The position numbers and the translations under genes were made by a program. The notes under the pieces were generated by a model that ran no database searches, was not told where the DNA came from, and was given only the letters and a program-made list of their open reading frames with translations. 64,000 nt of DNA, from positions 16,636,420-16,700,419 of the forward strand of contig OX422183.1 in assembly GCA_949130485.1 (NCBI GenBank), given 5' to 3'. This document shows, piece after piece, positions 10,811-52,372 of this stretch (the stretch's first letter is position 1; the number at the start of each line of letters is the position of its first letter). Origin of the DNA: Agelas oroides (taxonomy: Eukaryota; Porifera; Demospongiae; Agelasida; Agelasidae).

Positions 10811-10835
10811 AGTTCTATTTTAGCTCAACTGAGCT

Positions 10836-15804: not shown

Positions 15805-15873
15805 TCAAGAGTTATGTAAGTGCAGGCCTACTATTTTGTCACCAACAGCTTCAAAACTGCCTTGTAGATCATA
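15805..15873 (-). CDS. Receptor terminal exon
   Basis: The CCCACAG acceptor is preceded by a good pyrimidine tract. 69 bp in phase 0 encode YDLQGSFEAVGDKIVGLHLH, two more residues and TGA. It lies at the distal end of duplication copy B; its twin is at 6192-6260. Assignment to this gene rests on strand, spacing and phase. Confidence 0.5.
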   Translation of the reverse strand, partial: YDLQGSFEAVGDKIVGLHLHNS

Positions 15874-18800
15874 CTGTGGGAGTAAAAGGAAAAAGTCACC
15901 ATCATGGGTAGTTATGGTATGTTCATGAGTCACACTAATAATATAATACCTAAAATAACTGTGAGTCTACATGCGTGCAAGCATCACACGTCACATACAT
16001 GGAAGTATGTACATTAATAGTGCCAGGAATAGCGCGATGGAAGATTAGGCAGGCTGAATGATGAGGGTGTACATAAGCATACCGCACTTGGGGGGATCTT
16101 GGAGCATGCCCACCCTATTTAAATTTACTCCCAACTATTAATTTTAGTGCCACAGCTGTGCTTTTTTGAGTTAGTTATACATGCTACAGGATGTCAAGCA
16201 AGCATAACTAGCTAAGATGCCCAAGAGGGACCTTCTCTGAAAATCAAATTCAATGTTTACCTGCCAATCATGTTAACTTGTATTGTTACAGAACAGCTTG
16301 TACCTAATGTGCTACTGGCTCTACAGAATTGTTAATTATCAGAACAACAGTGAAAATATATCTTCAGTGGAAGCTATGGCACAATTTTTCAGTGGTTTCC
16401 ACTTCCATTGTAACTTATTCAGACTTCACTGTCAACTTGTATGAAAACTTCCTGAGTAAAGCAGATTTGTTTTTTCACCAAACTAAGCCTAACCACCAAT
16501 ATTTAAACTCAGTTAGTTTATACGGCATGCAACACAATGTGTACCATTGCCAATTGATTCATGCTTCATGTTTAGTATTTGTTTTGCTAGCATCTTCAAA
16601 CCTTTTCGTAGCCATCTCAATGAAAACAGAGTTAAGACAATAAAATTTAGATCCCCACCAACTTTGTGCTTGTTGGCCTGTTGCCATGGTAACACTTGTT
16701 AATATAGTGACTGTTTAGTTAAACAATGTACTTTTTCTTCAGCAGCAGTTTTTCTGAATACTTTTCACCCTTTTTTTGCTAGCATTCACTTTTGGATTGA
16801 GTGCCACAATGATTATTACCTGCTTAGCAACTTACCATTGTTTCATTATCTTCATACACCGTCATACGAATGTTGTCTCCCTCCTTCCACACCTTCATTC
16901 CCTATAAAATAATAATGTAACACAAGTCGAGAAAAGTAATGCAAAGACTACGATGTAAAATAAAAGACCAATGCAATAGGCCAGGGAAATCATTGGGGAG
17001 TGCCTATTAGTTAGTGCCATAGTATACCTACCCAAGAAATCAATTACCAACAAGCAGACATAAAAGTTAATGAGAGCCATATCTTTGTCCATTTGTTCTC
17101 CACAGGGCTATTCCTTTGACAAGGGATCTGCAGTTATTGGAAAGTTTCTAGCTATTGTACAGTTGCGGCAACAGAGCAATAAATTTTAAAATGTGTGGAG
17201 TAGTCAATACATGAACAATCAACGAACCACATCTCCCTTATAAAACAGGCCTAGATGTTATGCAAAGTCACCCACTGCGCAGGACGCGTTTCGGCCAATA
17301 CCAGGCCTCATCAGCTACGCTGGGGTGACCGGGAGATGGGGACTGCCATATCATGCATAGAATGACAGTCTTGTGTAGAAATCTAAGATTGTTTTTGAAT
17401 GCAAATTTGGTGTGGTTCTTTTTTTGCTGAAACAAACCCTATTTTCAAGGTTGAGAAACGACCAATCAGAAACCTATCTAGCCATAATGCTAGCTGGAGC
17501 ATGTTTATGCAGCACGCAGACATAAAAGACCTGCTTTCAGAAGCTATAATGTAATATGCACGTTGCTTTACCACCCTCTAGCTAAACAATGGATTCAACC
17601 TTTGCTGTGCATGTGATATTAGGTCATTAGATGGCAGGTTTGTTTTGATATTAGGCTATAACATATTTATCGAGCTTCTCATACACCTTGATAGATATTG
17701 GTAATGTATCTCATTAGCCACACACACAAGATTTAACAGTTGCTCCTGTACAACTACAATTGTATGTGAGTCAGAAAATTGCAAATGCAGGCCTCAAAAC
17801 TGTTTATGCAATTTTTATTTATTCTTTTTTATCTGAAGTCCGTGCCTGTCTGGGAAGCCAGAATGCATTACATGCACACGCACAACTTTTTATGGATTGT
17901 AGGCTTTTTAGCATAAGCACAATAATTTATGTGGTTGAATAAGTCACATTATGTGAGTAAGTATCTGTGCACGTGTAAATAGGGGGTGTGGCTTGCTTAT
18001 CTGCTGCATATTGTAAAGCCCACATATAAAAATTGTAGCATTACAGTACACACTTTACAGAAACCAGAAAGATTTTGGACTATGTATTTAATATGGCTGC
18101 CATTAGTGCACAGATTGAATTCAGTAGAAAAGACTATGAGAACAAATAGGTCATTTATGTTTGAGAATGAAATGAAACCACATGCTTTACACAAACCAGG
18201 GTTTCTTCTATGTGTCAGGGAATGATGCTAGCTAAAACTCAGATCAGCAGTACCAATGTACTGCTAACAGCACACTTACATCCATCATGTTAATATTTCT
18301 GGGGAATTCAGCAATCTTCTCAGGGCTTCTTTCTTCTTCCAGAAATGTCTTTATGTTCACATGGCCACTTTCATCTGCCAAGTCCCGGGGAGTCATCTGA
18401 TGTAAATAAAGAAACATCTAACTCAAACAAAACGCAAATGGTTCGAAATATATTAACTGACTTCCACATTCTCTTACCATGATGCCTCCTACATCAGAGC
18501 AAACTGGTATTTCAGGCATTAACACAATCCTTGGCAAGCAGCTTAGCAATTGTGATAGTTACATTATGAAGATATACTGAGTGGGTGCATCCCAGGTGTA
18601 CACTTGAATCATGGTTTATTTCATTAAGATCAGTGCATGGGGGAAATGACTTAATTGGTACTTAACCAAAAATTCGGGAAATAAATGCCTCCACTCTTGT
18701 TTTGTTCTCAGAGCAGTCAATGGGTCAAAGAATATAGTGTGTTTAAAGGGTCCACTTTTTTGACCCGCACTTGCAGTATTCAAAAAAGAGGGAGAAGGCC

Positions 18801-21800
18801 TTAAAACAATCTGTTGCACACTAATGTCACAGCAAAGTCGTCACTATTCTCAGCTACAAATAAGTTAGAGAAATTAGGCAAATTCCAGCCAAGGCAGGTC
18901 CTACCTCTAAACATATGTGACAGTCTGGTGTAGAAATCAAAGATGTGTATTTCGAACACATTGCCATGTTCAAGTGCTGAGGGCTCACACACACTTTGGT
19001 TTCTACATGTGACTGCCACAGATCTGAGTTGAAGCATAATCACTGAAGGGTGACTGTGATATAAGTTAACTCTGAAAGTTTTTTCACACCCATACTAAAC
19101 ATTTCCACCACTGAATAGTTTAGGCATGCGTTAGGCTAGACATTTTGGGCAACAGTGGCATACTGCAGATCATGTGGTAAGAACCCCCAAGCCTTCTCCC
19201 TTTATTCTTGCATACTCAAAAAGTGGTAAGTCCTGCTAGATTAGTGCACACAACTGCTTTCACAAAAGCTTATGGTGAACTCGAGGTGGCCATTCATTCT
19301 TGTCATACCAATTGGATCAACTTTTTTTGTGGGCACTACAATAGCTCTACTACCCTGTCACCATGGCTAGCTCTTTCCAGATAAAAACAGCTGCATACGT
19401 ATGTGCACACTCCTAGAGCTAATATCATGAAATGGGCATTGAGTAGTGCAAATTAACAGTGGGCACAAGGTTACTCAAACAATATCACCAGTAAGAATCT
19501 ACCTAGCCCTCAGTAGTGTAATCACTTACCCTAGCATCATCTTTGATGCTGATATCAGCTCCTTTCTTAACAAGGGTCCTCACTGAGTACTCATGGCCTT
19601 CTTTAGCTGCAATGTGTATGGGTGTCCGCTGATAGAAAGAAAGCCAGTAGTAATTTCAGTGTGTAGGCCAAATAGTGTTACAGACTTGGTATAACCTGTA
19701 TATAGCTAGTACCAAGGCACACATTAGAATGCTTTTTTTATCTCACTTATAGGTAGGTACCAGAAGTTACCTAGGTAACACTATATTAGCAGATGCTGTT
19801 GTTCATCTCTCTCTTGCACCTGCATAGGTAACAGGTTCTTTTACACCATTCCACAATTCTCAACTTTTAACCCCATATTACCCTATTTTGCTTGAAATTA
19901 TGCTCACTCAATAGTGGTCTTTCTTCAATATATGTAACTATGGTATCAATGTGGTTGGCAATGGTGACAAAATAGTGTGACACTTGCACTCAGAGGATGT
20001 AGTTGCTGGCTGTTGACCACCCGATTTATTATTGGCTGAGCTGGAGCTCATGTTGTAGTGTCGTCAGTGACTAACAGGTAGCCTCACATGATAAAACTGT
20101 ATTGTGCTAATGGCTACTCATTACTCTCAAAATTATGCTGGCATAATGTAAGCCTCCCTCCCCCCTTCTTTCACAGGGAGGAATAAATTTATGATAGTAG
20201 GCTGTTTGGTGTTGATAATACAGTCAAAAATAACTTTACCCCATAACTATCTGTGACATTGATATCAGCTCCTTTGTTAAGCAGGTATTTCATTATGTTA
20301 ATGCGGTCTCCTCGTTCAACTGCCACATGCAGGGGAGTCATCTGAAAAGGGAAAGAAAGAAAATGTAAAAGTAAAGTAACTTCCAGAAAAGTTAGTATTC
20401 AGACTGATTCTACATATTTCTGATGGTGGATATAAAGTGGCTCCTCTAATGCAATATTTCTGGTGGTGGTACTCAGACCCTGCATTTGCCATTGGGTACT
20501 AACAAGTTGAAATAACAAAATTATGAGTACACACACTTTACACCATCATTCCTAAGCCACTCCTACAAAATACCAAAGTCATGGCAGTCTTGTGTAGAAA
20601 TCTAAGAGTGTTTTGGAATGCAGGATTGGTGTAGTTTTATTGCTTAATCCATTAAAATGTACATGCACATGCGCAACTTTGCATGAATGGCAGGCTTCTT
20701 AGCAAAAGCACATATATGGCTGAAGGAGCTGGACTACTTGTCATGAATATTGAAAATGTCAATATGCAGCATACAAGCAAGCCACGCCCTCTTTTTTACA
20801 CAGCTGCACAGATACTTTGGAGTTTATAAAAGCTGATGACCTCTCAAACAACACAAGTTGACTGATGTGCTTCCAGGCTGGTTTGCATAACAGACTGATT
20901 TATAAAATGAAAATGTACATTGTAAAAGTAGTGAATATAGGGTCTTACTTACTCCATCAATATCGTTGCTGTTGATATCAGCTTCAAACTTTTCAACAAG
21001 GGATTCCACTGTGCACTCTTGGCCTTCTTCAACTGCAACATGCAGGGGAGTCCGCTGACGGAGAAATTGAAAAATAAATTAAGACAGTTGATGCAATACA
21101 AGTCATTGGGATTTGACTCTGTATATATATGTATTTATAGTGTAGCAGACTACTGTTGTGAAATATGTGGCACCACTTATGTGATACACAGCTGAGGGTG
21201 GCAGTCCCGTGTGGAAATTATTCTATTGCATATTTTGATCACATTACTGTATTTAGAACAGTGCATCACTGAACATCTATTAACCGATTACACACTAAGT
21301 TCGTTGGAATGCAATTAACCTCAAACGCGGGTAATTTTGGTGTCACGTGAGGTCAACATTATAAAAACGTATATCTAAAATTTTAAGCATCTGAGATCTG
21401 AAAGAAAACTCTACAGACGGAGGAATACAGATGGAGAAAGGTTCTACGCGGTTAATTTGTACATAGGTAAGTTGTTACGAAGCATACAGTACCACTTTGC
21501 GGGGAACGCTTACTTGTTGATAGTTGTGAGTAGCGTCTTTGGCTTTTCTCGTTGATAGCAAGGCGCAATCCCAGAGCTGCTTTGATATGTATAAAGCCTA
21601 AGGCCCGCTGCACCTTCGTAGGTAGCGTTGTATCTCTGCTTACAGGCGTTGAGAAGAAAACGTGGCTAATAACCGACTTTCACGATCGAGCCGAACGACG
21701 ATCGTCATGGCTTCTGGCATTCACTACGCTCCGCCCCTTGAGGGCTTCTAGACCAACCCCCACCTATTACTAGGGGAGGCCCCAACCTAACCACAGACCG

Positions 21801-24800
21801 GATATCAAAGCTGTTGCTAATAGCCTAGGGCTGTGATAAAACTCAAATGCAGCTGTGACGCGTATACGCGTCTACCGCATATAATGCATTGTTCCATGGT
21901 GACGCGTATACGCGTCTATCGCGTATAATCAGCGGGTGGAGCTAGCTTATAAACACTGTGAAGATACAGTGATTATCTATGAGGCATGTGTAATCCCACC
22001 CTTGCAGCACTTCAAAAGTGGCAGCACTTCAAATGTGACAACACAATCACAATACAGATTTCCACCTGGTAGCTACTATAACATACAGCACTTACCCCAT
22101 CCTCATCTTTGATGTTGATACATGTAGCACCTCCTTTGTCAATAAGAAGTCCCAAAACTTTTTCACAACGTCCTCTTTTAGCTGCCGCATGAAACGGAGT
22201 CATCTGATGGGGAGAAACATCAAGAGCAAACATAAACTGACTTCAAGGCATGTTGTCTATAGAATCATATTGCCAATGGTAAATATTAAGTAACCCCTTA
22301 GACCTAAAATTTCTGAAGACAACTGTTTTACCAACTCCCAAATCAAAATAATAGCAAGCATCAAAGTAAGCTGCTGGGCACTGCATGCATTATGTAACTG
22401 TATGCAAATTCAAGTGCTATCTATTAAATGCCTAACAGTTCACTTCGCCAGAGAATGTCGCATGCATCTGAAAGCAGCACAATTTCATACAATGTTTACA
22501 TCACTGAATACTCATCTCTGAAGAGTACAATTTGAACCGATACTGTATACACAGTGCCCTTCATAACAGCAGTTATCCAAACAGTCTCTGATCCTGGAAG
22601 CCCGACATTACCATCAGCAAGTAGTATATATACGTACTTACCCCACAATAATCTTGGATGGTTAAATCAGCTCCACGATTAACAAGGAATTCCACTGTGC
22701 ACTCTAGGCCTCCTCTAACTGCAACATGCAAGGGAGTCCGCTGATGGAGAAATTGAAACAAATGTTAAGACAGTACATGCAATACTATAGTCATAACAAT
22801 TCAGAAGTTGACTGACTTTGTCAATATAGTACAGATTGAAAGTATATACAAATTCCCAAATAAGGGATATACTTGAAGCAGCACTCAAATTCCTCAGAAA
22901 GCATAAGAAATGAACAATAGACCATGCTTTCTCACAACTGCCTGGAAATGAGGATAACTCAAACTCAAATCTCCAGTACTACTCTACCCTCAGTAGTGTA
23001 GTCACATAATTATAGCACTTACCCCATCCTCATCTGTGATGTTCATAGATTTATCCCCTCCTTTGTCTATAAGGTATCCCAGGATTTCTTCACAACGCCC
23101 TCTCTCAGCTGCCACGTGAAAGGGAGTCATCTGATGGAGAAAGACAGACCACATAAATAAACTGGATTGAAGGCTGGGTAGCATATTCAGACTCATTGGC
23201 CTATTTTATACACAGTTGTGTGTAAACAATATTGAAGTTACTATAAACACTTGCACATATACAGATGTGTTTACAGTAATAACAACAAAGGACTAATCAG
23301 GAAGGATACATAATAGTTATAGCACAGGTGGCTAGGGATTTATGGCTATAGTAAACAAACCTCGTCCTCGGGCTATGCCCTTAGACTCAGTCTGCTATGA
23401 CTATAACATAATCATTACCATGATTATGCTAATTTGCTCTAGATCATGTAATAATACATAATACATTGATTCACAGCTTTCTGTACTACCATGGTGAGTT
23501 CCGACACTGTTTGACTGTTTCCCGCTCTACTGTGGCTGCTTTCTACTTTACTGCAGCTGTTCAATGCTGGAGTCTCATGGTGTTGGAACAATTTCCGCAG
23601 TGGAGTGCCTTTATGGGCCACCCTAAAGATCAGCAGTTCTAATCTACCTTCATTAGCATTACGTATATAGGCCAACAGGAACTTGCAAAATGAAAACCTG
23701 TAAATTGATTTACATCATGGCCCAAAAGCTATGTAGTTGGCATTTCGAAGAGCAAAGGAATTTAAAAGGATAGCTAATTTACAAGGTAATGTTGACCCAC
23801 AATGGCTCCATACATATATATTTACCCCATTGTCATCCTTGATGGTGATATCAGCTTCTCTGTCAACAAGGTATTTCACTATTTCAGTGCGGGTTCTTTC
23901 AACTGCAACGTGCAAGGCAGTCCTCTGATGGAGAGAAATAAAGTACAGAAATACTCATGTTCTGTAGGTCAAAGCTGGCAATCTCTTCTTTTCAAACAAC
24001 ACAAACTCCCCAAAATACAACTCAGAACCAGTAAGGCCTGTCTGGTAAAAGCATTTCACTTGTCTGGTGAAAGTATTTCACACTTGCCACTTGTCATCAA
24101 GTTCTGTAATGTTTTGAATACCAAAGTGTACAGCTAACCTCACACCCAGGCATTAGTGTGTGGGTAGAGAAGAGAGAGTTTAGTACACCCTGTTTGCACA
24201 TATGTATGCTCAGTTCTCCCAGGATTTCTTGAAATTTTTGTAAAAACTATTCTGTTACACTAACTTCTGTTAGTCAGCCAATTTCTTTAGTGTGTAATAT
24301 GCTTGACATTGACCGTGCTTTGCGTGAATGATAACAAGGAAGCAAAGAAAGCACTCAGCTCTTCACTTGCAGGAATCATCAACACATTCATTCATTCAAT
24401 AATTGTATATACAGGCCCATTTATTCATTCTAGCTAAATACTACAGCATGTAAATGATGCAATCTTTATCTTCGAAGATCACCAACTACCTTGAACAAAA
24501 CATTGTAGACTGTTAGCATCCAAATGATGGCACTTCAGACTACAAAAAAAGGCACATTTGAAATGTGCCTCATAGGAAACATGACCCTGCAGTGCAGCAG
24601 GTAAACTCAAGAAAACTTGACACATGAACAAACAGAGTGTACAAGCTATGCTCTTTTTTCTCCTCCCCACATGAGAGCCTGGGAATAAGGTTAACTTTTA
24701 GTTAGCCATTTGGGCAAAGCATCTTGCAACCCTCATAAAATGTAAAGTCTAATGTATGTACTTATACCTCATTATTATCTTTGATGTTGATATCAGCTCC

Positions 24801-27800
24801 TTCGTCAACAAGCCGCTTCACTTTATCCAGATTACCTTTCTTGGCTGCCATGTGTAAGGGATATTCCTAATGGAGAGAAAGAAAATATTAGTGATTGGTT
24901 GACTTCTAGGCAGGTTATTGTGCACAAGAACTTGATGGTTAGAGTACTGTTTGGCCAATTCAGATCTACATAACATTTTGAGAATGGGTACCCTCAGGTG
25001 GTTCATATGGTGGCTGGGGTTATACCATTGAAAGAATTAAGTCCCTGATCTTATTTCTAGTTTTCACAAGGGACTTTTTCACATGTTTTGCATGCAAGTA
25101 AAGAATCATTAGTGAGCAACTCACATTTGAATTTGAGTGCTACTTCTAACTGTCTAAACTCCAATAGAAGTCTTTCCTGTCAGAGAGTGTACATTTGACA
25201 GGCTGCTGCTCAAGCCAATTGGAAATCGAAGTACTACTATAAGCATAAAGATAGATGGTAGCGCACGAGTGATTGCCCTTCCTCCGATGCCCCCCCCCCC
25301 CCCCCCCCCCTCTTCTATCCCCTGGATCTGCCCCATTGACCTGTATCAGATATAAGCTAACAACTGGACTTACAGTTGCTCCAGATGTTATTGAACCAGA
25401 CAAGGCAGGAGAACTTTCTGGCACATCCTTATCCTAATGCAAAGTGGAGGGGAAGAGAGTGTAATGGCCAGTGAGTGAACATGAGAGGTGGATGAATACT
25501 GCATGTATGCATATTGATCTGAGGTACAGTCTAGCACCCACTCCTCTCTTGAGTTACATACATTCAGCCTACAGGTGCTTAATACATTACATAATTTGTT
25601 ATCTGAAGCTTGAACTTGTGAAGTGTTCACAGATGCACACCATCTACATACACTGAAAAGGGACAAATACAGCATTTCTTTGATCACATGCCACGGCTAC
25701 TTTTGTTCATTTCACTGTTCATTTTTGTGTAGCTACTATTCGAGTGCAGCATTTAGAAAGCCTGCGTACATCAATGATGGCTGAAAAGGTACGTATGAGC
25801 AACACAACTAGGCCTAGGGCTATGGAGCCATTTGCACTGCTGGGCAGACATTTGACTTCTCTGCAGCTGAATACAAGGTGACAACTGATAGATGCTGGCA
25901 GTAGTACACACAGCCTCTCAGTCCTACTTGCAGCTGTGGAAACGAATCGTAGAACATGTACAGCCCTAGTACTAGCTCAGTGATTGCTGTCAGCAATTAT
26001 TTGTGGACATGTTGATGTACCACATATACTAACCATGGGTACTATTTGAGGGTGGCATTTATTTTGCTCCGAGTTTCTGACTGTACGACTTCTATTCAAG
26101 GGCAATGACTGCTCGAGCATCTGATCAAAGTAATATGGTTTGTAACAGACTGGTTGGAGAACACTATTTACCACAGCAGATAACGTACTCCACACTGTTT
26201 ACCTGCAATAAAATGTGCCTTCTTCTACGAGACCTCTGCATATACAAATACAATGTATGTGAATAGACATAATGACGTTGTATATATAATAGAAAGCACA
26301 ACATATGTATATACTAAATGTCATTGACTGCAGAACAATGTGAGGGAGTGCCTGAATGTTTTCACACAGCGTCAGGCCAAGGATCCCACAGCTAAGACAG
26401 ACCTTACCAGACAACATACATGACTTGTGAGATGATTTATCATTGTGGGGTGAGTCTGAGTGAGCAAACAGTGCATAACAGTGCAAGATGTGTTACTGTC
26501 TGCTGTTTCTCCAGCCAAGGCAGCTACTGCGGCAACACATGCATGGGCTAAGCTTCACAGCTAAGCTGTAGTCTTGCGGCCATTCTGACCTTTTCAAGTA
26601 CATCTCTGAGCTAGAAGGAAACTCCCCTCCCGCACCCCTCCCCTACGGCTGCTATAAGCGGCCACCGTGCTACAACTGTGCCCCCCCCAAATTCGAAGTG
26701 CTTCCGGCACCTATGCATGAATAATATGCTCATTAGAACATGGCCACAAGCAAACAACTATACCCACACACATGTGCAATGTAGTCTTGCTAGTTTGAGG
26801 CTCACTCAGGCTTTCCCCAATTATTACACTGCACAGAATTCTACACACTAATCACAGCTGCCCTGTGTTTTCTGTGACCAGTCTGGCTTGTCTGCTGCAA
26901 GTAGTCTTGCATAGCAAGACTATTTGCTATTTGTTAGGATTGCACATACTCCATATCATATAGCCGTAAAATTTGACAGGGAATTTAATTTGGCGATTTG
27001 CCGGTTCAATGACGACACAACCAAACTAAATTCCGCTAATAATTATTCAATTTTTGGTAGGTATGGTTGACTATTTTGCTTGAGGATGGTGCTGCTAATT
27101 TTGAGATTCGAGAAAGTCTTCCAGTGAGTGGTTTCCTCTTTGTTAGAGAAAGAAACAAATGCAAGTGTGAGCACTCACTGGAGCTGCAAAATCCAAGGCA
27201 AGTTGTATAGAGGAATCGCAATCAAGCTGCCAAAATTTTTCTCAGGACATGCGTCACACAACTGAGTTTAATTCTTCGCTGAACTGCCACCGCGGTACTT
27301 TTCCCAACAACAGAGTTCATGTATTCTTGTGTATATGTTCCGCGCAATCTGAGAATTTGCGCAATCTCGAGATTGCGTTGCGCATTCTCAGAATCCCGAG
27401 ATTGCGTTCTAATCTCGAGATTGCGCACTATACTTGCGCAATCTCGAGATTGCGCACTACATTGCGCTAACTCGAGATTGCGCAAGTATAGTGCGCAATC
27501 TCTTTTACCCCAACGCGCATGTGCAGAAACCATCTCGAGAAGCTACTAAAAAATGGCGACTTTGTGTAGTGTTGATTCATAATTTGCGTTATATCTTGTA
27601 AAATAGCAGAGTTCAGGCAATGATAGTTTGGCTTAGCTTGGTTGAAAACAAACCTGCCTTACTCAGGACGTAGTCAGGAGTCCTGCTAGTAAAGTCGGAA
27701 TAAGCTACAATGGTGGAAACGCGGGTACCCGCTGTGTACCTGAAAATGACCAATAATACACGCAAAAGATGGCTGACAGTTTCAGCGAAGGTACGTTTCA

Positions 27801-30800
27801 ACTGTCGCTGACACAATTAGATAGTATACACTCGATTGAACCAGTAGCGTGTGGCATATAAGCTGACTGTGGCCAACTACGATCGACAGGCAAACTTCGA
27901 ACGCGACCTTCTCTTCTGTTGCTCATCAATACACAGCATTACTCACTCTTCCAGATCGCAGTATGCCTCCTATGGAGGTAGACGCCGCTTATCAAGGATG
28001 TCTTCCATCCTGCGAGCTACACAGTAGATCACTCACTGTCGGGCGTACAGGCAAAGTTCGTAGATTGCGCACACGTGTTACGCAATCTCCAGATTGCGCA
28101 CACGTGTTACGCAATCTCCAGATTGCCTGCGCAATCTCGAGATTAGAACGCAATCTCGGGATTCTGAGAATGCGCAACGCAATCTCGAGATTGCGCAAAT
28201 TCTCAGATTGCGCGGAACATATACACCGATGGCCTCAAACACAACTTTCAAGTTGAAACTCTTCGACTTTGCACTGTTCACACTGTTCATCTGATTCGCA
28301 CTGTTCGAGATCCACGTGCAGACTTCCAAATATGAATGCACAATGACGTAATAAAATTTGTCTGCACAATTGCCAACTACCACATTGGAGGCCATTTCTC
28401 CAAATTTAATTACTGCCAAATTTTGCAGCTATAGCATACTTCACAGACAGGTTTGCAAAACCTGAGCTCAGTTGCCCTTCATGCTGTGAATGTGATCAAG
28501 CTACACCAAAGGATCTCACAATTGCATGCCCAGTCTAGTCTAGCATCCTTATCCAGTATGCATGGATTTTGTCAACTACATACACATGTATGTACGAATC
28601 ATGTCGGACGCACTAACAAAAAGTTCTATGTAGTGTGGGGCTTGCTCAAGCTTACCCCAATTATAAAACAGAATTTTGTGTGTATCCACATTTAAAACAC
28701 TTCTTGTGTGTTCAAATTAAGGGACATAATAATATGTGTGGGGAATAATTTCAGTTACCTTTCTTGCTCTCTCATGTATCCTCTTTATTTTTTCCTGCAC
28801 ATACAAATACGTATAACACAGTATAGTATAAACAACATTCTATTAGGAATGTATACATTACATATGTGCTTCAATATCAGTATTAAAACTGACCAAAATC
28901 CTCTCTTTGCTCCTGATCTCTAGCACCATTGTTATAGTGTGGCAGTAGCCACACACATTGTTATAGTGTGGCAGTAGCCACACTTACTCAGTAGGTTCAC
29001 ACACAAAACCAGTGTAAAATGTCAAATTCATCCATTTGAAATCGGTAGTGTAGCCATACCTGGGCATACATGGGCATGTGCCCGGGTAACTTTCCACACT
29101 GCTGTCAAAAGGCTACAAATGGCTTATGTCTAGCTATCTTGGTCTCTAAAGTGCTCCTAACCAGCTTCACCCTTCAGCCACCTCATGCATTGCTGTCTCA
29201 GGTGGAGAAACCTATTGCACACATGTACTAGCAAAAGCATTTGGATAGAAAGTGCTCTTGATTCAAGACAGATAGTAGCTAGCTTCAACAGATTACATTC
29301 AGAACCTAACTGAAAGGCTTCAAAATTTCAAACTTTCCTAGGGAGAGCATGCCTCTGGACAGTGGTGGTTCCAGACCTGGGCAAGCCCGGGCATTGCCTG
29401 GATAAAATTATGATCAATCATGATTATTGCTTACGGAAACTGTGACATAGTGGCTCTACCATGTGTGTCGCCTGCCTGGGTAATCTGGCAGCTCTGCCAA
29501 TGCCTCTACCACTCCCACCCCCATTTTGCACACTTTCAATGGGGCAGCCATTTTTGGGGGAGCTACCCTACATATAGAGTACTACTGTACTCCATGGTTA
29601 TATAACCTGTTACCTAGGCAACATCACTGTAGAAGAGAGATATGAGCAACATTCTTATATGTTGCCTAGGTAACAATGTTTTATTCCAAGTGAAAAACAG
29701 CATCATGTTTACCTTCAATGCCTGAAGTTCTCTCTCATGTTCTTCCTGTACACAAAAAGGTAAAAATAGCATAGCATAACATACATAAGGTGATCTACAT
29801 CATGTAGTAATGCAGTATCACTAATTGTATGGTGACAGTCATTTCCTGACATAAAAGGAGACAAGTATCTGCAGACCTTCTTATTATGCCACCTCCAAAT
29901 TGTACTATTCATGGGGCCGGGGCAGCAATGCGTGGTACTTGCTGTAATGCTACAAAATATTGCAAGACAATGATTTCGGGATTTTTAACGCTATGAAAAA
30001 CTACTTATGGTACATCATATAGCCATTGCAATGAAGTAATAGCAATGAGACTACTGCTAAAGTTGACCGATTGCATGACTAGTCTGCGCTTACAAACGGA
30101 CCAACTGCCCTCCACTGTTGACTGAAAAAGGTACCAACTGCTCAAAGTGCTAAAGGAAGTTTGTCATGACGTGGTCTGAACCAGGGCAATTGTTCCCAGA
30201 TTGTAGCCTGTAGTCTGACTGTGAAGTTGTATCTCTAAGGTGCCTGAACTCCTGTATTGCCGCTACTACTCCTGGGACAGCTAGCTACAGCGTAGTCTAT
30301 GATGAAACCCCACCCACTAAGTGTGCCCATTTTGGTGGCTGCTAACTATTTGCAACTTTTAAGATATTGTAATTCTACACTAATCGCATTAATCACATTA
30401 AACACTCGCATTATTTTGTAGCTTTACATGAAGTACCAGCAATCAATTAGTAGCTTGCTTTTGCCTACGATGAAAGGCCTTCGAGTATAGGAAGAGTACG
30501 CTTCACCTGCATTTGGAAAGCATCCCATCTTTTATTGCTGTCTGCACGAACATGTGTTGATTTTGTTACATAAAAAAATGGTTGAAAAAGTCACCAAGGT
30601 GTGACAATAGTATTATATGACAAACAACGTTGTGTTTACCTTCAATATCCAAAGTTCTTCTTCCTGTACAGTATGGTAGTATAGGGTAAGAGTCACATAG
30701 TATAGTGCATACATGTATTAACTAATACGCCCTCTATTTTCTTATGCTAGCTTGAGTCTGAAGTGGGGAGGGGGCTTTTACAACAATAGCCTCCACCCTC

Positions 30801-33800: not shown

Positions 33801-36800
33801 AAGAACGATGTTACAAAGCTTTGCTTACCTTCAATGTCTGCAGTTCCTTCTCATGATCTTCCTTCATTTTCACCTGCACAGGCAATTACAACAGAGAACA
33901 TAGCATACCACAACAGGGCACAACACAAGTGATTCATAGTCTCCAATGGAAGAACGATGTTACAAAGCTTTGCTTACCTTCAATGTCTGCAGTTCCTTCT
34001 CATGATCTTCCTTCATTTTCACCTGCACAGGCAATTACAACAGAGAACATAGCATAGCACAACACAAGTAGTTTTTCCTCCATTTCATCATGTACACCAG
34101 TTACAACAGAGGTGAACACAGCAAATTAAAACAATATAGGTGATTTAAATTGTGTAGCATTACTGACTGCATGATGACAGGCATAATATTTCTTGACTTA
34201 GCACCATCACAAAAATCTGTGTCTAATTTCTTACATAACAACTTCAGTTACAATGTAGGTTTGTGAGAGTTTCTCAACAATGAACACTAAGACAGCAGAC
34301 ACTCTAGAGACGTATATAATTAGGTTGTGCAGGGCCCTAGGAACAGGTCTGGCAGGTTCGGCAGCCGCTGGACCAATATTTGGCCAACCAACATGCGCAA
34401 AAATACCGTATGAGCTTCGGTGTGTTGTTCATTTCTTGCTCAAACAGTACACTAGCAGGGATCTCGGAAGATAACTGCATGTCATCCAAAAGATTTCTGT
34501 TGGGGGCTGGAGGTAAGCACACTTTGTCGCCCGAATAAAGTCCCCGGCGAAGTGTAAGATACACGTTCCATTACGGCAGCAAAGACAAGATACACGTGCC
34601 ATTACAGCAGCTAAGACAAGATACACATTACATTACGGCAGCGAGGACAAGATACATGTGCCATTACGGCAGCGAGGACAAGATACACATGCCATTACGG
34701 CAGCGAAGACAATAAAGAATGCAGGCAGCAATGCCTCATTCGCAAGCGCAACCGAATCATTCGGATTCAACGACAACAGCTCCTAAAAAGGAAGTTGATC
34801 ATGAGAGCAGAACAATTTGTTAACATTTTCTAAGGGTGGGGTGCCGGGTGGTGGAAGGGGAGGTGGGGCATGCCCCAGAACATTATGCGTGTGCTTTGCG
34901 CTACAATACAGCCGGACCATTTCAAATTTCACGGTAAAAATAGAGGAATGTGATAAACCAGTACCCACTGGGAGTAAAGCACAGGTCTCGTAGCAAGTCG
35001 GGCAAGTGGAAAACACTGAAGGTGGAAACCGAAGTACGAAAACTGAAGTACGGAAACGGAAGTACGGAAGTGAGAAGAAAAGCAATCTATCAGTGTCTAG
35101 TGCCTTACTGACACATGACTGTGTGTGTTGAAGCCTTGTAGCCAAAGCGTGACTGCCTCCCAGTGATGTGAGATCTGGATCCTGGGGTCTTGGACTGCAG
35201 CGATCATTCCTATCATGATGCCATGGTGAGTTTAAGCGGCCAGACCAAATCCAAGACTAACGGTGAGCAGGTCAAGCATGCAGGCTCTATGCTCCTGATG
35301 CTCTCATGGCAGTAATATACAGATGCGAGTGTTGTCATAGTTTGTCACTGAGAATCTTCGCCAGACTAAATTTGGCTCAATCAGTTACTCCTAAAATACC
35401 AGCAAATAGTCATCATAGTCTCAGCCAAGACAACTTGGCGTCTCATGCTAAACGAATGTGTTAGTGCTTGCTGGAGTCCGAGGTCCCAGTACCTGGCTCT
35501 CACATCACTTAGAGACAGTCACCCTTTGCATACAAGGCACTGTCGTGAGTTGGTAAGGCACAAGACACTGATAGGCAGCTTTTCTTCTCACTTACATAGT
35601 TACTGTCTCCCGTTTCCACACTTCAGTATTTTCCACTTGACCGAAAGCGTCACAAAGATGTGATAATGATATTATTTGCAGAACAGTGTTGTGTTTACTT
35701 CAATATTCAAAGTGCTTCTTCCTATGCAATGCACATGTCACATACAATATAGTAGCATATGGTAACATTCACATGGTACAGTATATACACATCTGTATTA
35801 ATTATGCCTGATTTCTTATGCTAGCTTGTCAATGAGTCTGAGGGGCTACAAATTAACAATAACCTCCCCTCCCCCCCTCCCTCCCACAGGACTGCTCTTT
35901 CAGTGTGACAAATTTTTAAGCCATGCCCCAACCAAAACCCACAAGTAATACATATCACTATTTCATAGTCAGTTCTTGAACTAACCCGAAGCAAGAAAGC
36001 AGCAAGACATCTTCAGGCCCTCTGATTTATCATACACCACCTCCAAAATGATGTTACATTACGTATCTTCAATGGAAAGGGAACGATGCTACAACAGTAT
36101 GTTTACCTTTTCAGTACGATGACTTCTCTGCTCCAGATCCTGTATAAAAAATTACATTAGATGTGTGATTCACACAGTAGTACACTATAGCGGTGTAGGA
36201 TTAATACGTAATAAGCACTCCTTGATTCCACCCCCTAGCAAAAGGAGAGAAGATATTCATCCACCTCCATCTCAAGGGCAATGTCTAATCATGGAAGCAT
36301 GGGTATTGTATTCCAGGTTGCAAAATGTGAAGAGCAATGATACTGCTTACCTCCACTGCTTGAAGTTCATAAACAGAATCCTGTACACAAAATTACAACA
36401 GAGTTGAACATAGTACATGTGACAATCTGGTGTAGAAACTGTGAAGATTATTCTGCTGCATATTTTAATTGCATTTGAAGCAGGGGCAGGGCTCATATAT
36501 ACATACTACATAAATGCTTCAGATACTCATGCATCTACAAAGCACATGTCGTTAATGAAAATTCAGCAATAAAACACTTTCAACACAGCAAACTACACAA
36601 CAGAATAATCTACATGGGACTATCACACACAAGCTGTGTTTACACGTAGTACTTAAGCTGGTTCCCAAGCTGGTTTCTATTGAACCGGTTTGGAAACTCC
36701 CAGGTGTAAACGTGCTAAACCGATTTAGAAACCGGTTAGCAAACCGTACGCAAACCACTTCAGGGGGGGTGGTTTGAAGCTGGCCTCAATGTGGCTTATG

Positions 36801-39800
36801 CATGCACGTGGTGTGTGTAAGTGGCGGCTGAGCGGGTTCTGTGTCTGTGCAATTGCTGTATAACGATTTGACGCAATGAATCTATTCGGTTGTATGAAGC
36901 AGTAAGAGGATAGACCAGACCTGATTTGCATTAGCGTTGTTCCCAGGCCTTCCCATCGTCCAGTTTTTGATCTCTTCTAGCACATAAAAACTGGAAGCGA
37001 TCAAAAATGGACGGTGGGAAGGCCTGGTAACAAGGCTAATTTGCAGCACATGCAGTGGAAGTCAAGTTCTCCCTCGATGTTGTCTTGGTTTCTCTCTCCT
37101 CGTGCTGAACTCTATTTAAAGCAGTGACTTTTAATCAGATTACAAACCACTTAGTGTTTACACGATGAATACAATCAAGCCAGCTTAACGCCTCTTGTGT
37201 AAACGCATCGCATGCACATTCACAAAAAAGGTAGCAGCTACGTATAGCGAATAACATGATGCAACAGTTAGGCAGTAAAAAAAGGAGCTTTGTACACAGT
37301 TGCACATCATATAGTTCCCTTATAATTAATTGGTAACCTAACTTGCGCACTACACTGTATGTAGTACACCCTCCAAGCAAAACTGTCCATTCCAGCTACT
37401 ATACCTACGTAAATGCTCCAGAATAATGCAACAATTCTTCGATGATGCAGACTGTTACCATGAAAGTTATGTTTTAACCACTCAAATTTGCTTCACAGGG
37501 AATGTAATGCAGTGTGGCTTTTAAAAGCAGGCAAACTGAAAATGCCATAATTTTAGTGTGAGGGTCTTTAGTACCGATGTTACTAGCTATGAATCAATTT
37601 TATGACCAACTATGTATATGTCTTTATTTTGACACACATGAGGTGATTGGGAAGGTTGTAGAAATCCTAGAGGAAACTGAGCTATGGAAACAATGTGTAC
37701 CATGGAAGGCTAAGATTATTCACACATGCTGTATAACCACAGTCATTTCCTGACCCAGAAAGATAGAATCTGTGGACTGGTTAGTATCGTTCCTGGGCCT
37801 TCACTGCTTCCAATATGACTATGCAAATACAGAGGGGAAAGCTGTCATGTGCAGTGATGTCATGCATCATTAGCTGGACAGAAAGTAAACATGCATCTAA
37901 CGTCAGACTCTGTCCTAGGACTGGAAGCCTGAACATTCATAAGGTAGTGTATATACAGCTCATTGTTTGGTATCAGGACTGATCAATGCAGAATTACAAC
38001 ACATAAGACACTGCTCCCCAGGTGTCTACTTTCTGACTGCCTAATGTGATGTGATCTCCTAGGCCTCTCCCTCTCTGTATTTGAAAGGCTTGCTTCTTTA
38101 TTACACACAATTCACCAAGTAGTCTTCTACGTATTAGCAGCTGGATGTATCGATATATGGCAAAGGTGCATGCAGTATGTACACATAATTATGGTCCAAT
38201 TTGAATGCTGATTTAGTGTCCAAATGTGTATGTTTTACTGTTTGCACAACTATCAAGACGTACGTATACTCCCTTATAAAATCAAGTTTCCTGACCTTTT
38301 TCTTCTTCTTCCTGTAGCAAGCAATACACACAGCAACAAAAATTGCACCAGCAACAGCACCAACAACAGCACTGCCAATAGCAGCACCAACAAGTGCACC
38401 AACAATAGTAGCAGCATATGCTAGAAAAGGGTTATGATGTGTGATTTTATGATAAATAAAACTGATAAAGATTGGGTGATACAATATACATAAGCACATA
38501 CAAACATTATGGAATGAGTATGATATTCAGAACAAGATTTACTGCTTGCACTACCAAGGTCTCTCTAGCTGCAGTTGGCACCAGCAACATGATCGAGTGT
38601 TGCCCAGAAGAGGGAGGACATTATGTCACATTGTAGCAACATTACAATCACAGGGGACAATTCTAACTGCCAAACATCTTCAGCTTTGCTGAAAAGCATG
38701 CATGCCCATTGTGTCCTAAAATTGCTGAAATTTAATTATGAATTATTAGGCTATGTTGAACGCAAAGATCAGAAAGGGCTGATGCTGGCGACTGTCTCAG
38801 TTTTGTTTACACAAGTTGCACAAAACTCTTAAATTTCTCAGCCAGTGTAAGGTTGTCATGCAATTTCTCTATACAACATTGTAAATTTACAGAACATGGT
38901 ACATGTACAACGCAAATAAATAAATGGCAAATACGTATCATACTTGGAGTTTCAGGTGGTGGATCAGTAGTGGCTCTAGGTTCACACACTGCAAATAATG
39001 AAAACAAACAAATGCAACACTCAAAGTTAGTCCTGTTCCAAAAATCTTTCTGCCTCAATTTTTACAGTAATGCAAACACTAACATGGCATGGTACACTTA
39101 TTTTTTGTACTAGATAACCAGATCAATAAAGACAAGATGAAACTTGATTTGCGTATACAGTGGAACCCTGCCTTAAGAACACACCCTGAAAAGCGGCCAT
39201 GTATGATACTGTGGACACTTCGTTTGGTCCTGAATGCATTTACATGTTTGTGCACAATCAAAACCCCTGAATGTGGAAACTCCTGTTTTCCGTAAAGCAC
39301 CTGAAATCCGGATTATCGTTTACCGCTTCTATAAAATTGTGTGCACATCTCGAGGAGTCAGCAAATCACTACGAATAGACTGAGGCAGTTTCCAGAAGTC
39401 AGCTTGTCATTCATTTGGTATTGGTCATCTTTCTGTTTATACGTACTACAGTAACCTACGTAACATAGGATTCGACAATTAAGCTGTCAGTATAGCTTAA
39501 CCAGTCACCGCAAAGGAACAACTAAGCAGAAGTACGTAGGAAACAACGGCTAGAACATGGTCAAAAAAGTCATGTGATTATTACACAAACCACAAAACCA
39601 CATGCGGCGTGCGTATGCAAAACAGTGCGCACACAAGAAAAACGGGTCCAGGCGTTAAGTCCCCTGAGTGTATTAACTGTTGCTAATCATTCTCAACCTC
39701 GTATGGCAACAAAAGTGCATTACCATGCCCACCGGAAGTATACTGGAAGCCCCTGAAATACAGATACCTCCATATTACGGACACACAGCGGTGGTCCCAA

Positions 39801-42800
39801 CGGTGTCTGCTTTATAGGAGCTCCACTGTATATGAAGCCCTAAGCTATATGCATGGTACGTAGCTGCATTTGTGGGCGTGCACCACTAATATCAAATATA
39901 TCGTCAAAGATGGACAGAAGACGACAGTTGCTCGCTACCAAACTTGCTATACAAATTCAACTGAAGGTACTAACTAGCAGTGTACCAGCTCACTCCTACA
40001 GTATTCCTGCATGAATCTTAAATACTGGATAGTGGTGAGGCACTACGCACACTACAGAAGCACCACCACCAACAAGCTTACATTCCAGAAATTTTTGGTA
40101 TTAATTTTTCTGATGGTAAGCAATCCTTCGAGTCATGTCTGATTGTTTTGTTTGGCGTTCTTCTGTTCTGGCTTGACACAAACAGTTCTCATGTCCACGG
40201 TCAGCAGTAGACAATACAAAGGTCACTTGCAGTTAAAGCGCTCAACCGCTGAACATACTTCTCTGTCCTATGTATAGCTTTGAGGCCACAGAACACATTC
40301 ACAGTGATACAACAACAATATAGTTGTAGAGCACGATGCAGAAAGCCACAATATATACCTCGCTCACATTGTATGGTTATGCCAATTTCTTTTAGTCACA
40401 TGTGATCTTTACATTGAGATTACATTAAAATTGAATCCCATGCCTTAATTGCCCTGAGAAAGTAGGGGGTAATCTAGTGAAGCAGAGTCGTGCAGACACA
40501 ATGTACAAGTCATGGGGGTAAGTGCTCAATACATCCCAGTGTGATTAAAAGGAGTGGAAACATTGCTCATCTACTCATCTACATACATGTGGCAAAATAG
40601 TACAAGAATTGAGTCAGGAATCACCTAAAGCTCTCAGGATGAAAATCTGAATATTCACTTCTGTTTTATAAGTATCACTTATCAAATTTGTATACCTGGA
40701 TGAATTGAAAGTGTAGTGCTGTCAGATCCACAATCATTTGACACTGTCAGCGATGCAGTATACTCCAAACCATCCATCAGAGTGATGTTCAGAATTCTCT
40801 CCCCTGGGCTAAGAAACATGGGACACTCTTCCAGTGCACAGCCATCAGAGGATGACACATTCAGCTTGTAGGTCAGTGGGGCTACATCTTGTATTTCCTC
40901 AATCTCAATTGTAACTGAAACATTTGGACAGCTTTCCTGACTATTTGAAAAATAATGTTGCAGTGACCTTTCTGTAACTGGTGGTGTATCTGTATATAGG
41001 AATAATGTAAAAAAAACTTACCTACATATATGTACATACGTACATACGTAGTAGTTTTAACTCTCTAGCTCATGAATAGTCACTATTCTCAAAGTGAATT
41101 GCAATGCAGTTTGGAAATGAGAATGCACACAAGACAGATACGTATGTAGATATTTCAGACAAGATGAAAAAAAGGTCCAGCCATGGCCTGACCAGCTTTA
41201 CTGGTTCCAGCATGTATACCTGACAGTATATTGACACCATATATATTATACTAGGCTATGCCTGGTCCTGATCATCACGAGAAAAGTTGCAACTTTCTGG
41301 AAGAGGGCTCACATAAGTAAGGGAAGCTGTCAAGGTTGGTCTCACCCAGCAATCTTTGTAGCTAAATGTGCAATATTACCAATAGTGGTCCATTTGGCTG
41401 CATGGTAAATAGATTCATGCTGTTTTAGCTATCCACTGGGTAGATTCACTCAGAAACATACCTAACTAAGCAAGATGGTGAACTTTCGCTGCTCCGTATG
41501 TAGTTTAATTCTTCCACCCATTGCAATTTTCAATGCTCACAAACATGGCTTCTACATTATACAATGTACAAGACAAAAAGAAACTCCTAGAAGTTTTGCA
41601 CATAGTGACAATAACTTCTCACTGTCTTTGTGCAGCAATCATCACTTAACATGCTGCCCATACCCATGACTTTGTGTGGAGCCAAAGTTTGAACTTTACC
41701 CATATATATATATTCATAGACTGCTGGATACTTAAGATGAACAATAGTAGAGGCTACACAATTTGTTTACCAGCTAAACATGTCATAGCTCGTAGCCAGG
41801 TGTTTTTGTTTTGTAAGCTATATAATGCATATGAGGTAGGCAGCTTTGCGTAGACAGACGTAGCTAATGCAGCATGCACAGTGAGTTACATTGCCATGCT
41901 CACACCGTCACAGTGACATCACGAGTGCCATTCAGTGCCATCAGGCTTGGACTTCAAAGCCGGTGGTGGCTCTATTTTCTGTCAAATTGTTTGCTTTGAG
42001 GGCATTGAGTCGCTATAAACATGACATGGGAGCTCTTTTGTAGTTAAATGCATAAACACTCAAAAGAGCGCCCACCCCCTCTTTGATGGATTTGTAAGAT
42101 GCATAAGCACTCTTTTGCGAGACTAGAGTACTATGAAATATTCACCACTTCACCCTTGTTTCTATAGTAGTAGGTAAGCATTATTTTCCATATACTGACA
42201 GAAAGTTGTCAATTCTGTTTCATATACAGTAAACCATCAATATTCGGACACCTGTGATAATTGGACGTTTGTAAACGGAGGATAAGCCACACAGTTACTC
42301 TGCCACAAAAAGGAAGGTGAAGTCCACCGTAGCACCCAAGGCAGCTACAGTGACCGATATCAGGCGTGCAGCAGCAGGGTCATGCGGCTCCCCAACAGTG
42401 CGGAAATCCTGCTGAGAGTAACTTAAGAAAAGGAACAGGAAGCGGAATCCAAAAATACATCAGTTTAGCCAATTATCGAATGTTTCAGATTGTTACTCTA
42501 ATCAACTCTAGTGCAAGGGGGAATTGACACTCAAGTTCCTTGTTTACAGTGCAATGTTTTTGGCAATGTTTTAATATTCTCAGTTACATGTATAGTATAA
42601 ACACTATAACAAGTGCAATCACAACCTCATAATTTGAAAACAGTACCCACAGTTAATTATTGTTCATGCAAGTCCAAGCTTGTAACCGTGGCATGTACAG
42701 GTAGTTTGGACTCCATACCCAACAGTACAGGCCGGCTTTAATCCACCTTGCTTTCAATGTTCCAGAGCTTCATTCTAGCTTTTGAAAGCATGGAGTACAC

Positions 42801-45800
42801 TATTCTTATAAACTGTCAAGGCCTACGTAGTGTCTTACAGTGAAACAAACAGTGGAAACAAGGCTGTACTAGTGATGGAAAGCTGACAAGGGGCCTGGGA
42901 ATGATTTATGATATAGCAGTCAGCTGTACCTTACCTATGCAGTGTCAATAGCATTGTGCATCATCCTCTGTCTTGGGGGCAGAATCGCATGCGCTAGCTA
43001 TAGTCTCACTCTCAGACCAAATGCAGCAATGGAACAAGACAATGTGTACGTATGTGTACAAAATCACGAAATGGCAATGGACAGCAGCTGCAGGTGTCTA
43101 GAGCTTACCATGTTTTCAGTATAATATCATTGATAATTTCTCTACCTCTTCCAAATATTACTTTGATAGAGAAGGCAAAGTTATACACAACATTACACTT
43201 GCCTGTAACATTGACAGTGTGTTCAGCTTCAGTGCTAGGGCAAAGTGACAGTTGATCTCCACATACAACTGTTACACTGTCCATGGATCTAGCCGGAGTG
43301 AATGTAAGGACTGAGCGGAGGTTTGAAGAACTTTGTGCAACAGGAACCAGGTGGGAATGATAGGAACCTCTTGTTCTTGTTTCTCCTTCATCATCACCCA
43401 TTGTATAACCAAGAGGCCTGTTACAAGGAATGTCAGGTTCAGAAACCCACTGTAAGCTAATTCCATTTATCACTTCACAACTGAATTCTATTTCTTCACT
43501 ATGACAGACATAGGGTGGGTCCCGTGTACTAGTTAAACTCAGGACAACAGACGTCCTCATGCCAGCAGGCGTCCTTTCACATGAATTTGGAGCACATCCA
43601 CCATGAATGTGTACTGCAGGAACAAAAAAAAGAACACCTTAAACAACACAATACGGGTATACAGGGTATATAATGACATCTCCCCCTCCTCCTACCACAC
43701 ATGCAGCATATGTACATCCTTCCTGTGGGTAACATTACTTTCAACACCATGCACAAGGAACTACAAAAGGCTCTTCTCCACATGCTTCATTTGCTCTGTA
43801 GCTTATACAGCTATACATACATGTAGTCACTGACACTGCAATCACCAAGATGAACAACATGTTACAGGGGTATCACACTGAATTATGAAGCCCAGCTATG
43901 CTACCATAAGGGTGATAGAAGTTCAAACTTACAGCTAGGCAGATGAAATACTAGTGTACGGGAAGTGTTGTCATGGACAGCTTAGTACGTGTTCTTCAAA
44001 CGGGCAAGTGGAAAACGCTGAAGTGCGGAAACCAAAGTACGGAAATGGAAGTACTGAAACTGAAATACGGAAGTGAAAAGCTGCCTATCGGTGTTTAGTG
44101 CCTTACTGACTCCAAATGTGTGTTGAGGACATGCAGCCAAAGATTGACCATTTCCCAGCGATGTGAGAGCTGGATCTTGGGCTCTAGGACTGCAGCGAGT
44201 GTTGCTATCACAAAGCATGTGACTGCCAGTGAGTGTGGCCGATCCAAACTGAGACTAACGGTGAGTAGGCCAATCATGTGGGCTCTATGCTCCTGATGTT
44301 CTCTGACAATGATGCGGATGTAGGTGTTGTCATAGTTTTGAAACTACTCCAGAGACACTAGCAAATAGTCACCGTAGTCTCAAATTGAGACCACGACAAG
44401 ACTATACTCACCGTGTCATGCTAAACAACCTTGTTACTGCTCACTGGAGTCCAATGTGTCAGCACTCACTGAGACAGTCACCTTTGGCTATAAGGCACAG
44501 TCGTGAGTCAGTATGTATATATATCAGAGAGTCAGTAGACTCTCTATGTAGGGATGGCGCGGATGCGCAATATATGCAATACTTAAGCAAAAGCCGTATA
44601 ACTTCACCACAAACACGCTAAAAGCTTATTTAAGTGCCCAGGCTTCCTCCTTGAGTGTCCTTGTGATCAGCAAAGTTCATATAAGTGGCCAAAAGCCACA
44701 CGGAAGACAGCTAAACACAAAAGTATGCGGTCATGAAAGTGCCATTTTTCGTATTCTTCTTTCTTTCTGGTTAAGACCACTATGTTCAACAATGATATCT
44801 CGAAAACGGTTTAAGTGCTCACCGTCATTTTAGCACGAAACTGATTCTTATCACAGCGCGGAGTTCTACGACCACTCAGCGTCTTCATAGTTTCAAATTC
44901 ACCCGGGTCAATAAAAGCTATTCACAACACTCTGTGGTTGCTGTCCGTTGTGAAGGACGCCGTTTTCTAATTTTGTACGCATGTCTCGTTCCCAGGCCAA
45001 ATACCACGCTCATTGGTCTGGGAGCGAGACTAGTACACAAACAAAATCGCGAGTTGACCACGTGCACGGCTGGCACGGTCTCTTCCCGTAGTAGTGGGCA
45101 TGGTTTATGAACACCACATACAGGTAAGGCGCTGCATTCAGCTGCCAACTTATAGCTACACTAAATAAAGTAGCTACTCATAGCTTTAGTAAACTGTGAT
45201 GCTAAGATGGTCAGTTGTCAGTATAGTTTTCTGTGCTGCAGCGGTCAGTTGTCATGTGATTGAAAATTCAGGAGATTGGTTTCAAAAAGTTTGGTACGGA
45301 GCTCCAGAGAGTGGTTGGCCTTCATCAGATTCTAGCTGGCAATGGTGTTACATGCTTGGAACCACTGCAAAATTGTTGTTTCAAGTTCTGGGGTTGTAGT
45401 TACACTTGAAAGAAATATTCTTTTCTTAGGCTTAGGCCTAACTGTAACTGAGATTAACATCAAAAAAAAAGTACAGAAACAAGACTTAAAAAACATTAAA
45501 AATGTAAAAGTTATAGGGATGGTATGCCAAAAAGTATGCAAAGAAGGTAGGGATGATATAATAGTGAAGATAAATCCCTATCCCTACATCTTTTTACATT
45601 ACAGTTGCAAACTAATGTGAAAACGATGCAGGGATGAGGCTTTGTAAATTTACCTTCACTATTATATCATCCCTACCTTGTTTGCATACTTTTTGGCATG
45701 CCATCCCTACATCTTTTTACATTTTTAATGTTTTTTAAGTCTTGTATATATATATAGACAATTTCCCATTTCGTCCCAATTAGTTGACTCGTCAGTACCT

Positions 45801-45911: not shown

Positions 45912-46578
45912 TTAACCCTTTGAACGCGGAAGTGATTTTATTCATGACAGTTTATTAACTCGGAAGTTGTTCCATATCAACGTTATTGACTCGAACGGTT
46001 TTAGTGACAAGCGTGCTAACAGTAAAAAGTCTTTGGCTGTTCTAGTGGCTTGATTTGTATAGATAGGGTGCAAATAGGCTGCAATAGTTTATCTAAATGG
46101 CTGATAAGTGCGTAGTAAGTCATTTCTACTTGTTTGAAGCCATTTTGTGCTGACTATACATTGTAGCTTCGAGCGGTTGGAAATGTTGCCGATTTTCTCA
46201 CCTGATACCCCCAGCCACGGTAAAATCAGCCGATTTACAAGTTATTTGAAGCTATTACTCCTACCTGAAGTCAAATATGGAGAACGCTTGCTCCCTGTGG
46301 GCGAGAAAAAGCTTCGTGTGTTTGGCAGCCCTCGGCTCATTGACGATACCCAGCGAATAAGTACCGCCTCTTCCTGTCTTTCTAGCCGATGATATCAGTC
46401 AAAAGGTGTGGCCTAGCCTCATTAGCACTTATCATGGAGGGGCCTACCCTCAAATCTCGTTAAGCTTCTTAGCTTCGCGAGGAAAGCGCACGAACTTATT
46501 GTGAGCATATATGGTCGCCGCGACGACCGGAAGTTTAATGTGACCATATATATATGGTCACCGCGTTCAGAAGGTTAA
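45912..46578. mobile_element. piggyBac-like non-autonomous element
   Basis: TTAA at both borders (45912-45915 and 46575-46578), with TIRs CCCTTTGAACGCGG and complement CCTTCTGAACGCGG. Subterminal repeats near the right end carry ATATGGTCGCCGCGACGACC and ATATATATATGGTCACCGCG. No transposase. Confidence 0.8.
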
Positions 46579-49330: not shown

Positions 49331-49624
49331 CTACAAACCTGACCACTGCAACCATTATGCAATATACATATCCACTTGTAACAAGTGTCAAAAAAAAGCT
49401 AACCTAGCTAGCTGTCACAAAATTGTGAGCACAGTACAGAGTCGAAATTGTCAAAGATAACATGTGGAAACACACCCCACTCACCAAGCTACCCTGGCCA
49501 AATAGACTAAACTGAAGGATCAAACATACTTGACAAACCAAACATGCTATAAAGTTTAGAAACCATACACCAATATACAGCCAGCCTGGCTGTACCTTCA
49601 ACAGGTAGCTTGGAATGTGAACTG

Positions 49625-50469: not shown

Positions 50470-50524
50470 TCAATGAAGAACTACTCACAGGTGTGGCAGC
50501 AGCAAGTCAAAGGTGGTCAGGCCA

Positions 50525-52338: not shown

Positions 52339-52340
52339 GT

Positions 52341-52372
<32 letters not shown>

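Follow-up and report, generated by a model that had tools for sequence, protein, structure and literature searches.

We favour a reading of this locus as a single gene, a member of a receptor cluster in which the tyrosine tail has been replaced by a phase-0 helix-ankyrin module, over a reading as two adjacent genes, and put its probability at roughly 55%. The window, which is the whole stretch of 64,000 nucleotides that was analyzed, corresponds to C1:16636420-16700419, where C1 is the window's own contig; the genome searched comprises 259 Mb. On the minus strand, 29 exons running from 43860 to 15805 were rebuilt, all of them open, and joined into 2463 nt encoding 820 amino acid residues, with the sole stop codon at the end. 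The exons encode, in order, a leader, a V-like Ig domain, an FN3-like domain, a Pro-rich stalk, a membrane helix, 13 charged microexons, nine ankyrin repeats, and a tail. Up to the membrane exon, the exons beginning with the leader join in phase 1; the membrane exon itself changes from phase 1 to 0, and every later exon is in phase 0. The domains, their order, and the change of phase at the membrane that the first-pass annotation had claimed thus hold, with no internal stop.

The splice-site weights were generic animal ones, and the scores are therefore only relative. Weak donors were found at the FN3 exon (0.4), the stalk exon (0.3), and the first ankyrin exon (-1.3), and weak acceptors at the membrane exon (0.3) and at microexon m5 (0.4). 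Codon usage was also tried as an exon test and discarded: the scores of the Ig exon (-0.11), the FN3 exon (-0.06), and the read-through tail of the membrane exon (-0.16), against an intron mean of -0.20, did not separate known exons from introns.

The leader exon (MLFILVIAVSVTT, positions 43821-43860, phase 0 to 1) has a weak donor (1.7) and was placed as in the paralogue L016; it lies 207 bp before the Ig exon, and the leader candidate of L016 lies 197 bp before its own Ig exon. The earlier placement of the leader near 45847 was given up in its favour, as no ATG is present there. In another paralogue, P2, the leader apparently lies inside the Ig exon.

The Ig exon (43203-43613, phase 1 to 1) is followed by a GC donor at 43201-43202, and a donor of the same kind was found in the four nearest paralogues, L010-L013. 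Its AlphaFold model (pLDDT 85) has an Ig beta-sandwich fold, and the nearest solved folds were T-cell-receptor V domains and NCAM Ig1. C45, W55, and C117, representing the B-strand Cys, the C-strand Trp, and the F-strand Cys, were invariant in alignments of 10 and 40 sequences. Pfam gave no Ig family at E<=1 for the exon itself; for the ten-member alignment, the best Ig E-values were 0.017 (ig, 1 of 10 members) and 0.12 (Ig_3, 3 of 10). The best match in a sequence-profile search of the PDB was an antibody chain at E 0.13, with nothing below E 0.1. The outer exon is accordingly predicted to be a V-like Ig domain by its modelled fold rather than by Pfam.

The FN3-like exon (40696-40989, phase 1 to 1) yielded a model with a pLDDT of 87 and an FN3 fold, matching the FNIII domains of integrin beta4 and gp130 with modest Foldseek E-values. 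By sequence, it gave weak PKD matches alone in Pfam (E 0.16-0.2) and a best E of 0.42 in the PDB profile search. Both ectodomain assignments, which had been made from the letters of the DNA, are now backed by predicted structure. In a public protein set, 227 relatives of the Ig exon, its own copy included, and 86 relatives of the FN3 exon were found at E<=0.001; proteins were eligible for this search only at 0.55-1.75 times the query length, and the short length of these matches is therefore uninformative. The FN3 profile had no match among viral contigs and four short matches of 20-32 residues among prokaryote contigs, in MAGs, which are probably unrelated. The stalk exon (CEPRATTDPPPETP, 38944-38988, phase 1 to 1) has a similar short phase-1 counterpart, CEVGPTSSPETP, in the paralogue P1. 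A full-length query over residues 1-330 of the 820, for which 7997 candidates were scored, found no long relative at E<=0.01.

The membrane exon (38296-38420) encodes a helix with three GxxxG motifs followed by YRKKKKK. It is the only exon of the gene with phase 1 to 0, the shape required to join the two halves, which would occur by chance in one of three cases. As a genome query, it gave two other weak matches (E 0.30 and 0.57) and no clear paralogue. If left unspliced, it reads through 53 codons to a stop near 38134, and an AATAAA lies about 30 nt further on, at 38102, as one of 16 on the minus strand in 31 kb.

Behind the membrane exon, and before the ankyrin exons, lie 13 charged phase-0 microexons. 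They measure 24-45 nt, in most cases 33 or 45 nt, and encode 8-15 residues each. The first of these, m1 (DSVYELQAVE, 36351-36380), starts 1.9 kb behind the membrane exon and is followed by m2 (DLEQRSHRTEK, 36107-36139). Five further microexons, VKMKEDHEKELQTL(K/E), start at 34022, 33873, 33724, 33575, and 33426 within a tandem array of 4.8 units of 149 bp (33348-34064). The remainder are m4 (GDHQRRLQEVQ, 33139-33171), m5 (DPKQRRQPTEK, 31113-31145), m6 (EEELWILK, 30640-30663), m7 (EEHERELQALK, 29713-29745), m8 (EKIKRIHERARK, 28759-28794), and m9 (RSRRRRHILLQ, 26203-26235), the least certain. Since most of them encode 11 or 15 residues, the chain would form a long helix, and it may form a coil. 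The units of the array match at 98%, and each contains an identical or nearly identical microexon; the predicted helix therefore appears to have been lengthened recently by exon duplication. Within the putative spacer introns, a minisatellite-like sequence of 28-29 bp occurs in facing copies at 27222-27542 (minus strand) and 27867-28256 (plus strand).

A microexon filter, set after the exons had been seen, passed 12 of the 13 microexons on the minus strand of the spacer (24.9-38.2 kb) and none on its plus strand. It passed none on either strand of 1-15000 and 46501-64000 of the window, and seven on both strands of 282 kb of neighbouring DNA, which corresponds to 0.33 expected per 13.3 kb. The same microexon was found at C1 19.61, 19.79, 19.87, and 29.14 Mb, and at all of these except 19.61 Mb an ankyrin array is no more than about 10 kb away; at 29.14 Mb it lies 8.4 kb before the array, and neither Ig query found an Ig exon there. 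The underlying pattern search gave 16 matches, and one in the control; four matches off C1, with one mismatch each, were taken as chance. The 5' flank of m1 resembles those of other microexons, namely the first microexon seen in the loci L052 (z 15-20) and L053 (z 8-13). A VYE..VE motif shared by m1 and the tail of P2 was dismissed, as the pattern had been drawn to fit both and gave 7 matches against 6 in the reversed control.

Nine ankyrin exons with one repeat each follow on the minus strand, at 24768-24866, 23826-23924, 23023-23130, 22642-22740, 22096-22203, 20953-21054, 20240-20341, 19530-19628, and 18280-18396, the last being degenerate and carrying an extension. When joined, they matched Pfam Ank (PF00023) at E 6.3e-71 in eight stretches, which bears out the ankyrin stack proposed earlier, with its ninth unit degenerate. 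The tail exon GMKVWKEGDNIRMTVYEDNETM (16836-16901) and the terminal exon YDLQGSFEAVGDKIVGLHLHNS with the stop codon (15805-15873) complete the chain. An exon-start pattern of one ankyrin repeat per phase-0 exon was found at 122 sites in the genome and at none in the reversed control. A genome query with the whole ankyrin part mainly returned ankyrin genes in long open frames and was uninformative for exon-split relatives.

The ectodomain is of the type found in a tandemly expanded IgSF receptor cluster, of which the window gene is one member. A genome search with the Ig exon gave 24 places at E<=0.01, counting the exon itself, and one with the exon of a distant paralogue gave 42, all on C1, which merge into 46 distinct places; the FN3 exon matched four places, itself included. 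The exon of P2 that encodes the membrane helix plus tyrosine tail gave 50 genome matches at E<=0.01, of which 49 were on C1; among these 49, two overlap, one contains a stop codon, and three end before the tyrosine motif is reached. The 46 related Ig exons and 49 tail matches surround the window at C1:14.5-23.4 Mb. For 23 of the 46 Ig exons, a tail match follows on the same strand at a distance of up to 15 kb, compared with 2 in the opposite-strand control; the tandem arrangement of the genes explains why the same-strand upstream control also gave 16. Three of the tails were read, PVYEEIDVEMLY... (P2), PVYEEIDVVYGPMQQ (P4), and PVYEDIVGQSQNIELKENVAYGPVQR (C1:17292430), and tyrosine motifs of such a type can bind SH2 domains. 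None of the 50 matches to the PVYE(E/D)I membrane-plus-tail exon falls in the window, and none lies within 30 kb downstream of the window gene, P1, or P3.

The paralogues differ in what follows their ectodomains. P2 (Ig 50%, FN3 48% identical) ends in a single exon for membrane helix plus tyrosine tail, and roughly 20 kb of sequence behind it yielded no ankyrin exon. P4 ends in membrane and tyrosine-tail exons, likewise with no ankyrin exon in the stretch searched; its Ig exon (C1:16067332-16067730) contains two stops and is pseudogene-like, adjoining an open tyrosine-tail exon. In P1 (Ig 57%, FN3 68%), phase-0 ankyrin exons follow on the same strand; the first is separated from the Ig exon by about 49 kb that contain no tyrosine-tail match. 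The stretches of P1 that were read lie outside C1:16220000-16238000, 18 kb in which its membrane exon might be located. Just before these ankyrin exons lie a charged phase-0 exon of 21 nt, DHVESLK, with strong splice sites, and a microexon-like frame, EEREDHEQNFKLFK, with no listed splice pair. The membrane exon of P3 may end at a phase-0 donor, which scores low (-0.4), and P3 has, behind this exon, one charged 33-nt phase-0 exon, which may be a chance match; over P1-P4, the charged-exon filter passed three exons on the gene strands and four on the other strands. Four of the 46 Ig exons are followed on their own strand by an ankyrin array no more than 120 kb away, and all four belong to the 23 that lack a tyrosine tail nearby; the count is not clearly above the chance value of about 2 estimated by hand. 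This count is confounded by strand, as every ankyrin array at 15-22 Mb is on the minus strand, whereas the Ig exons with a tail are mostly on the plus strand. Further Ig/ankyrin pairs lie at C1 21.36-21.38 and 15.90-15.98 Mb.

Whether the two halves belong together turns on the splice from the membrane exon to m1, which we infer. The open chain of 820 residues, the phase of the membrane exon, the flank of m1, the lack of a tyrosine-tail match in the window, and the arrangement in P1 all point to one gene. On a less probable reading, which nevertheless deserves weight, two genes lie side by side on the same strand. The first would be a receptor with Ig, FN3, and membrane parts whose end lies near 38134; the second would encode a cytosolic microexon-ankyrin protein and start between about 38.1 and 34 kb, perhaps at an ATG inside an m3-type microexon of the 149-bp array or from an untranslated first exon. 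The AATAAA at 38102 and the tyrosine tails of P2 and P4 agree with this reading. Against one gene, too, neither a long relative among the scored candidates nor a clear paralogue of the membrane exon was found. The loci L052 and L053 bear on the same question. In the 5.7 kb before the first microexon of L052, the filter detected no membrane exon. In L053 (C1 19.87 Mb), two microexons of the same kind come 1.5 kb after a domain exon with a phase-0 donor at its end, to which they would be spliced. This domain (3344-4117 of the locus; C1:19873843-19874616) comprises 258 residues, looks cytosolic, has no Pfam match at E<=0.1, and has 123 matches genome-wide; the microexon module is thus not necessarily part of a receptor. 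Upstream on the same strand, L053 also contains an ORF (9079-9531; C1:19879578-19880030) that encodes a Death domain (Pfam E 3.1e-12) and a hydrophobic stretch.

Against two genes, no copy of the L053 domain was found in the window, and between 43.2 and 36.4 kb the sole ATG exon with a phase-0 GT donor scoring at least 2.5 is the one that includes the membrane helix; a separate ankyrin gene therefore has no obvious start there. The read-through tail, moreover, scores like an intron in codon usage (-0.16 vs -0.20), although the Ig and FN3 exons score barely better. It is unlikely that the locus produces mixed forms, with alternative 3' ends or promoters giving a short receptor and a long or cytosolic ankyrin form, or that it is decaying. 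The poly(A)-like AATAAA that stands past the membrane exon, the in-frame ATG in the m3-type microexon, and the stops in the related Ig copy of P4 would fit these possibilities, and the open state of 29 of 29 exons speaks against them. The single receptor remains the favoured reading.

If the single receptor is correct, contact with a ligand or a partner cell might cluster it, with the GxxxG membrane helix favouring pairing. The microexon helix could then act as a spacer or oligomeriser of the inner part, and the ankyrin stack could recruit a cytoplasmic partner in place of SH2 proteins. One transcript would mean that, in a surface receptor, ankyrin repeats are linked directly to an Ig/FN3 ectodomain, and would show how exon shuffling can change the signalling route of a receptor cluster. 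Even with two genes, the cluster itself, with 46 Ig exons and 49 tyrosine-tail matches on one chromosome, is a concrete candidate for the means by which early animals recognise self or sense microbes, of which the molecular basis is little known. More tentatively, the locus may belong to a chromosome-scale IgSF complex of an early animal, probably a sponge, with dozens of V-like Ig genes, many of them bearing tyrosine-based tails, whose cytoplasmic modules were swapped by phase-matched exons, here a helix-ankyrin module for a tyrosine tail; the product would be a receptor type with no known named family and a candidate self/non-self or symbiont receptor.

Elsewhere in the window, a Core-2/I-branching glycosyltransferase lies in one open frame at 7911-9344 (plus strand; Pfam E 3.1e-36), and a Death-domain-like fragment interrupted by a stop lies at 10430-10663 (plus strand; tblastn E 6.6e-6, 36% identity). 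An ORF of 185 residues at 2176-2733 (minus strand) is reminiscent of a sulfotransferase but had no Pfam match at E<=0.1.

Notch is a single-pass receptor with cytoplasmic ankyrin repeats that carries EGF/LNR repeats and is cleaved. The window protein shares the single pass and the cytoplasmic ankyrins, whereas EGF/LNR repeats were not apparent in it on inspection. Ankyrin genes of the same genome have the same pattern of one repeat per phase-0 exon, and in L053 the microexons come after a domain exon instead of a membrane helix. Among the matches listed from the open-licence literature, titles and abstract openings described no Ig-FN3-membrane-ankyrin receptor. Ig receptors with other cytoplasmic domains, such as the sponge Ig-TIR receptors (PMC6208332), and IgSF clusters, as in Hydractinia (PMC11067881), are already known. 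For the Alr family of the Hydractinia allorecognition complex, the excerpts consulted mention no ankyrin or FN3 part. The sponge Ig-TIR receptors, or non-canonical TLRs, resemble the proposed receptor in combining extracellular Ig domains with a cytoplasmic interaction domain (PMC6208332, PMC8242945); they carry a TIR domain inside the cell, where the window gene would carry a helix plus ankyrin repeats.
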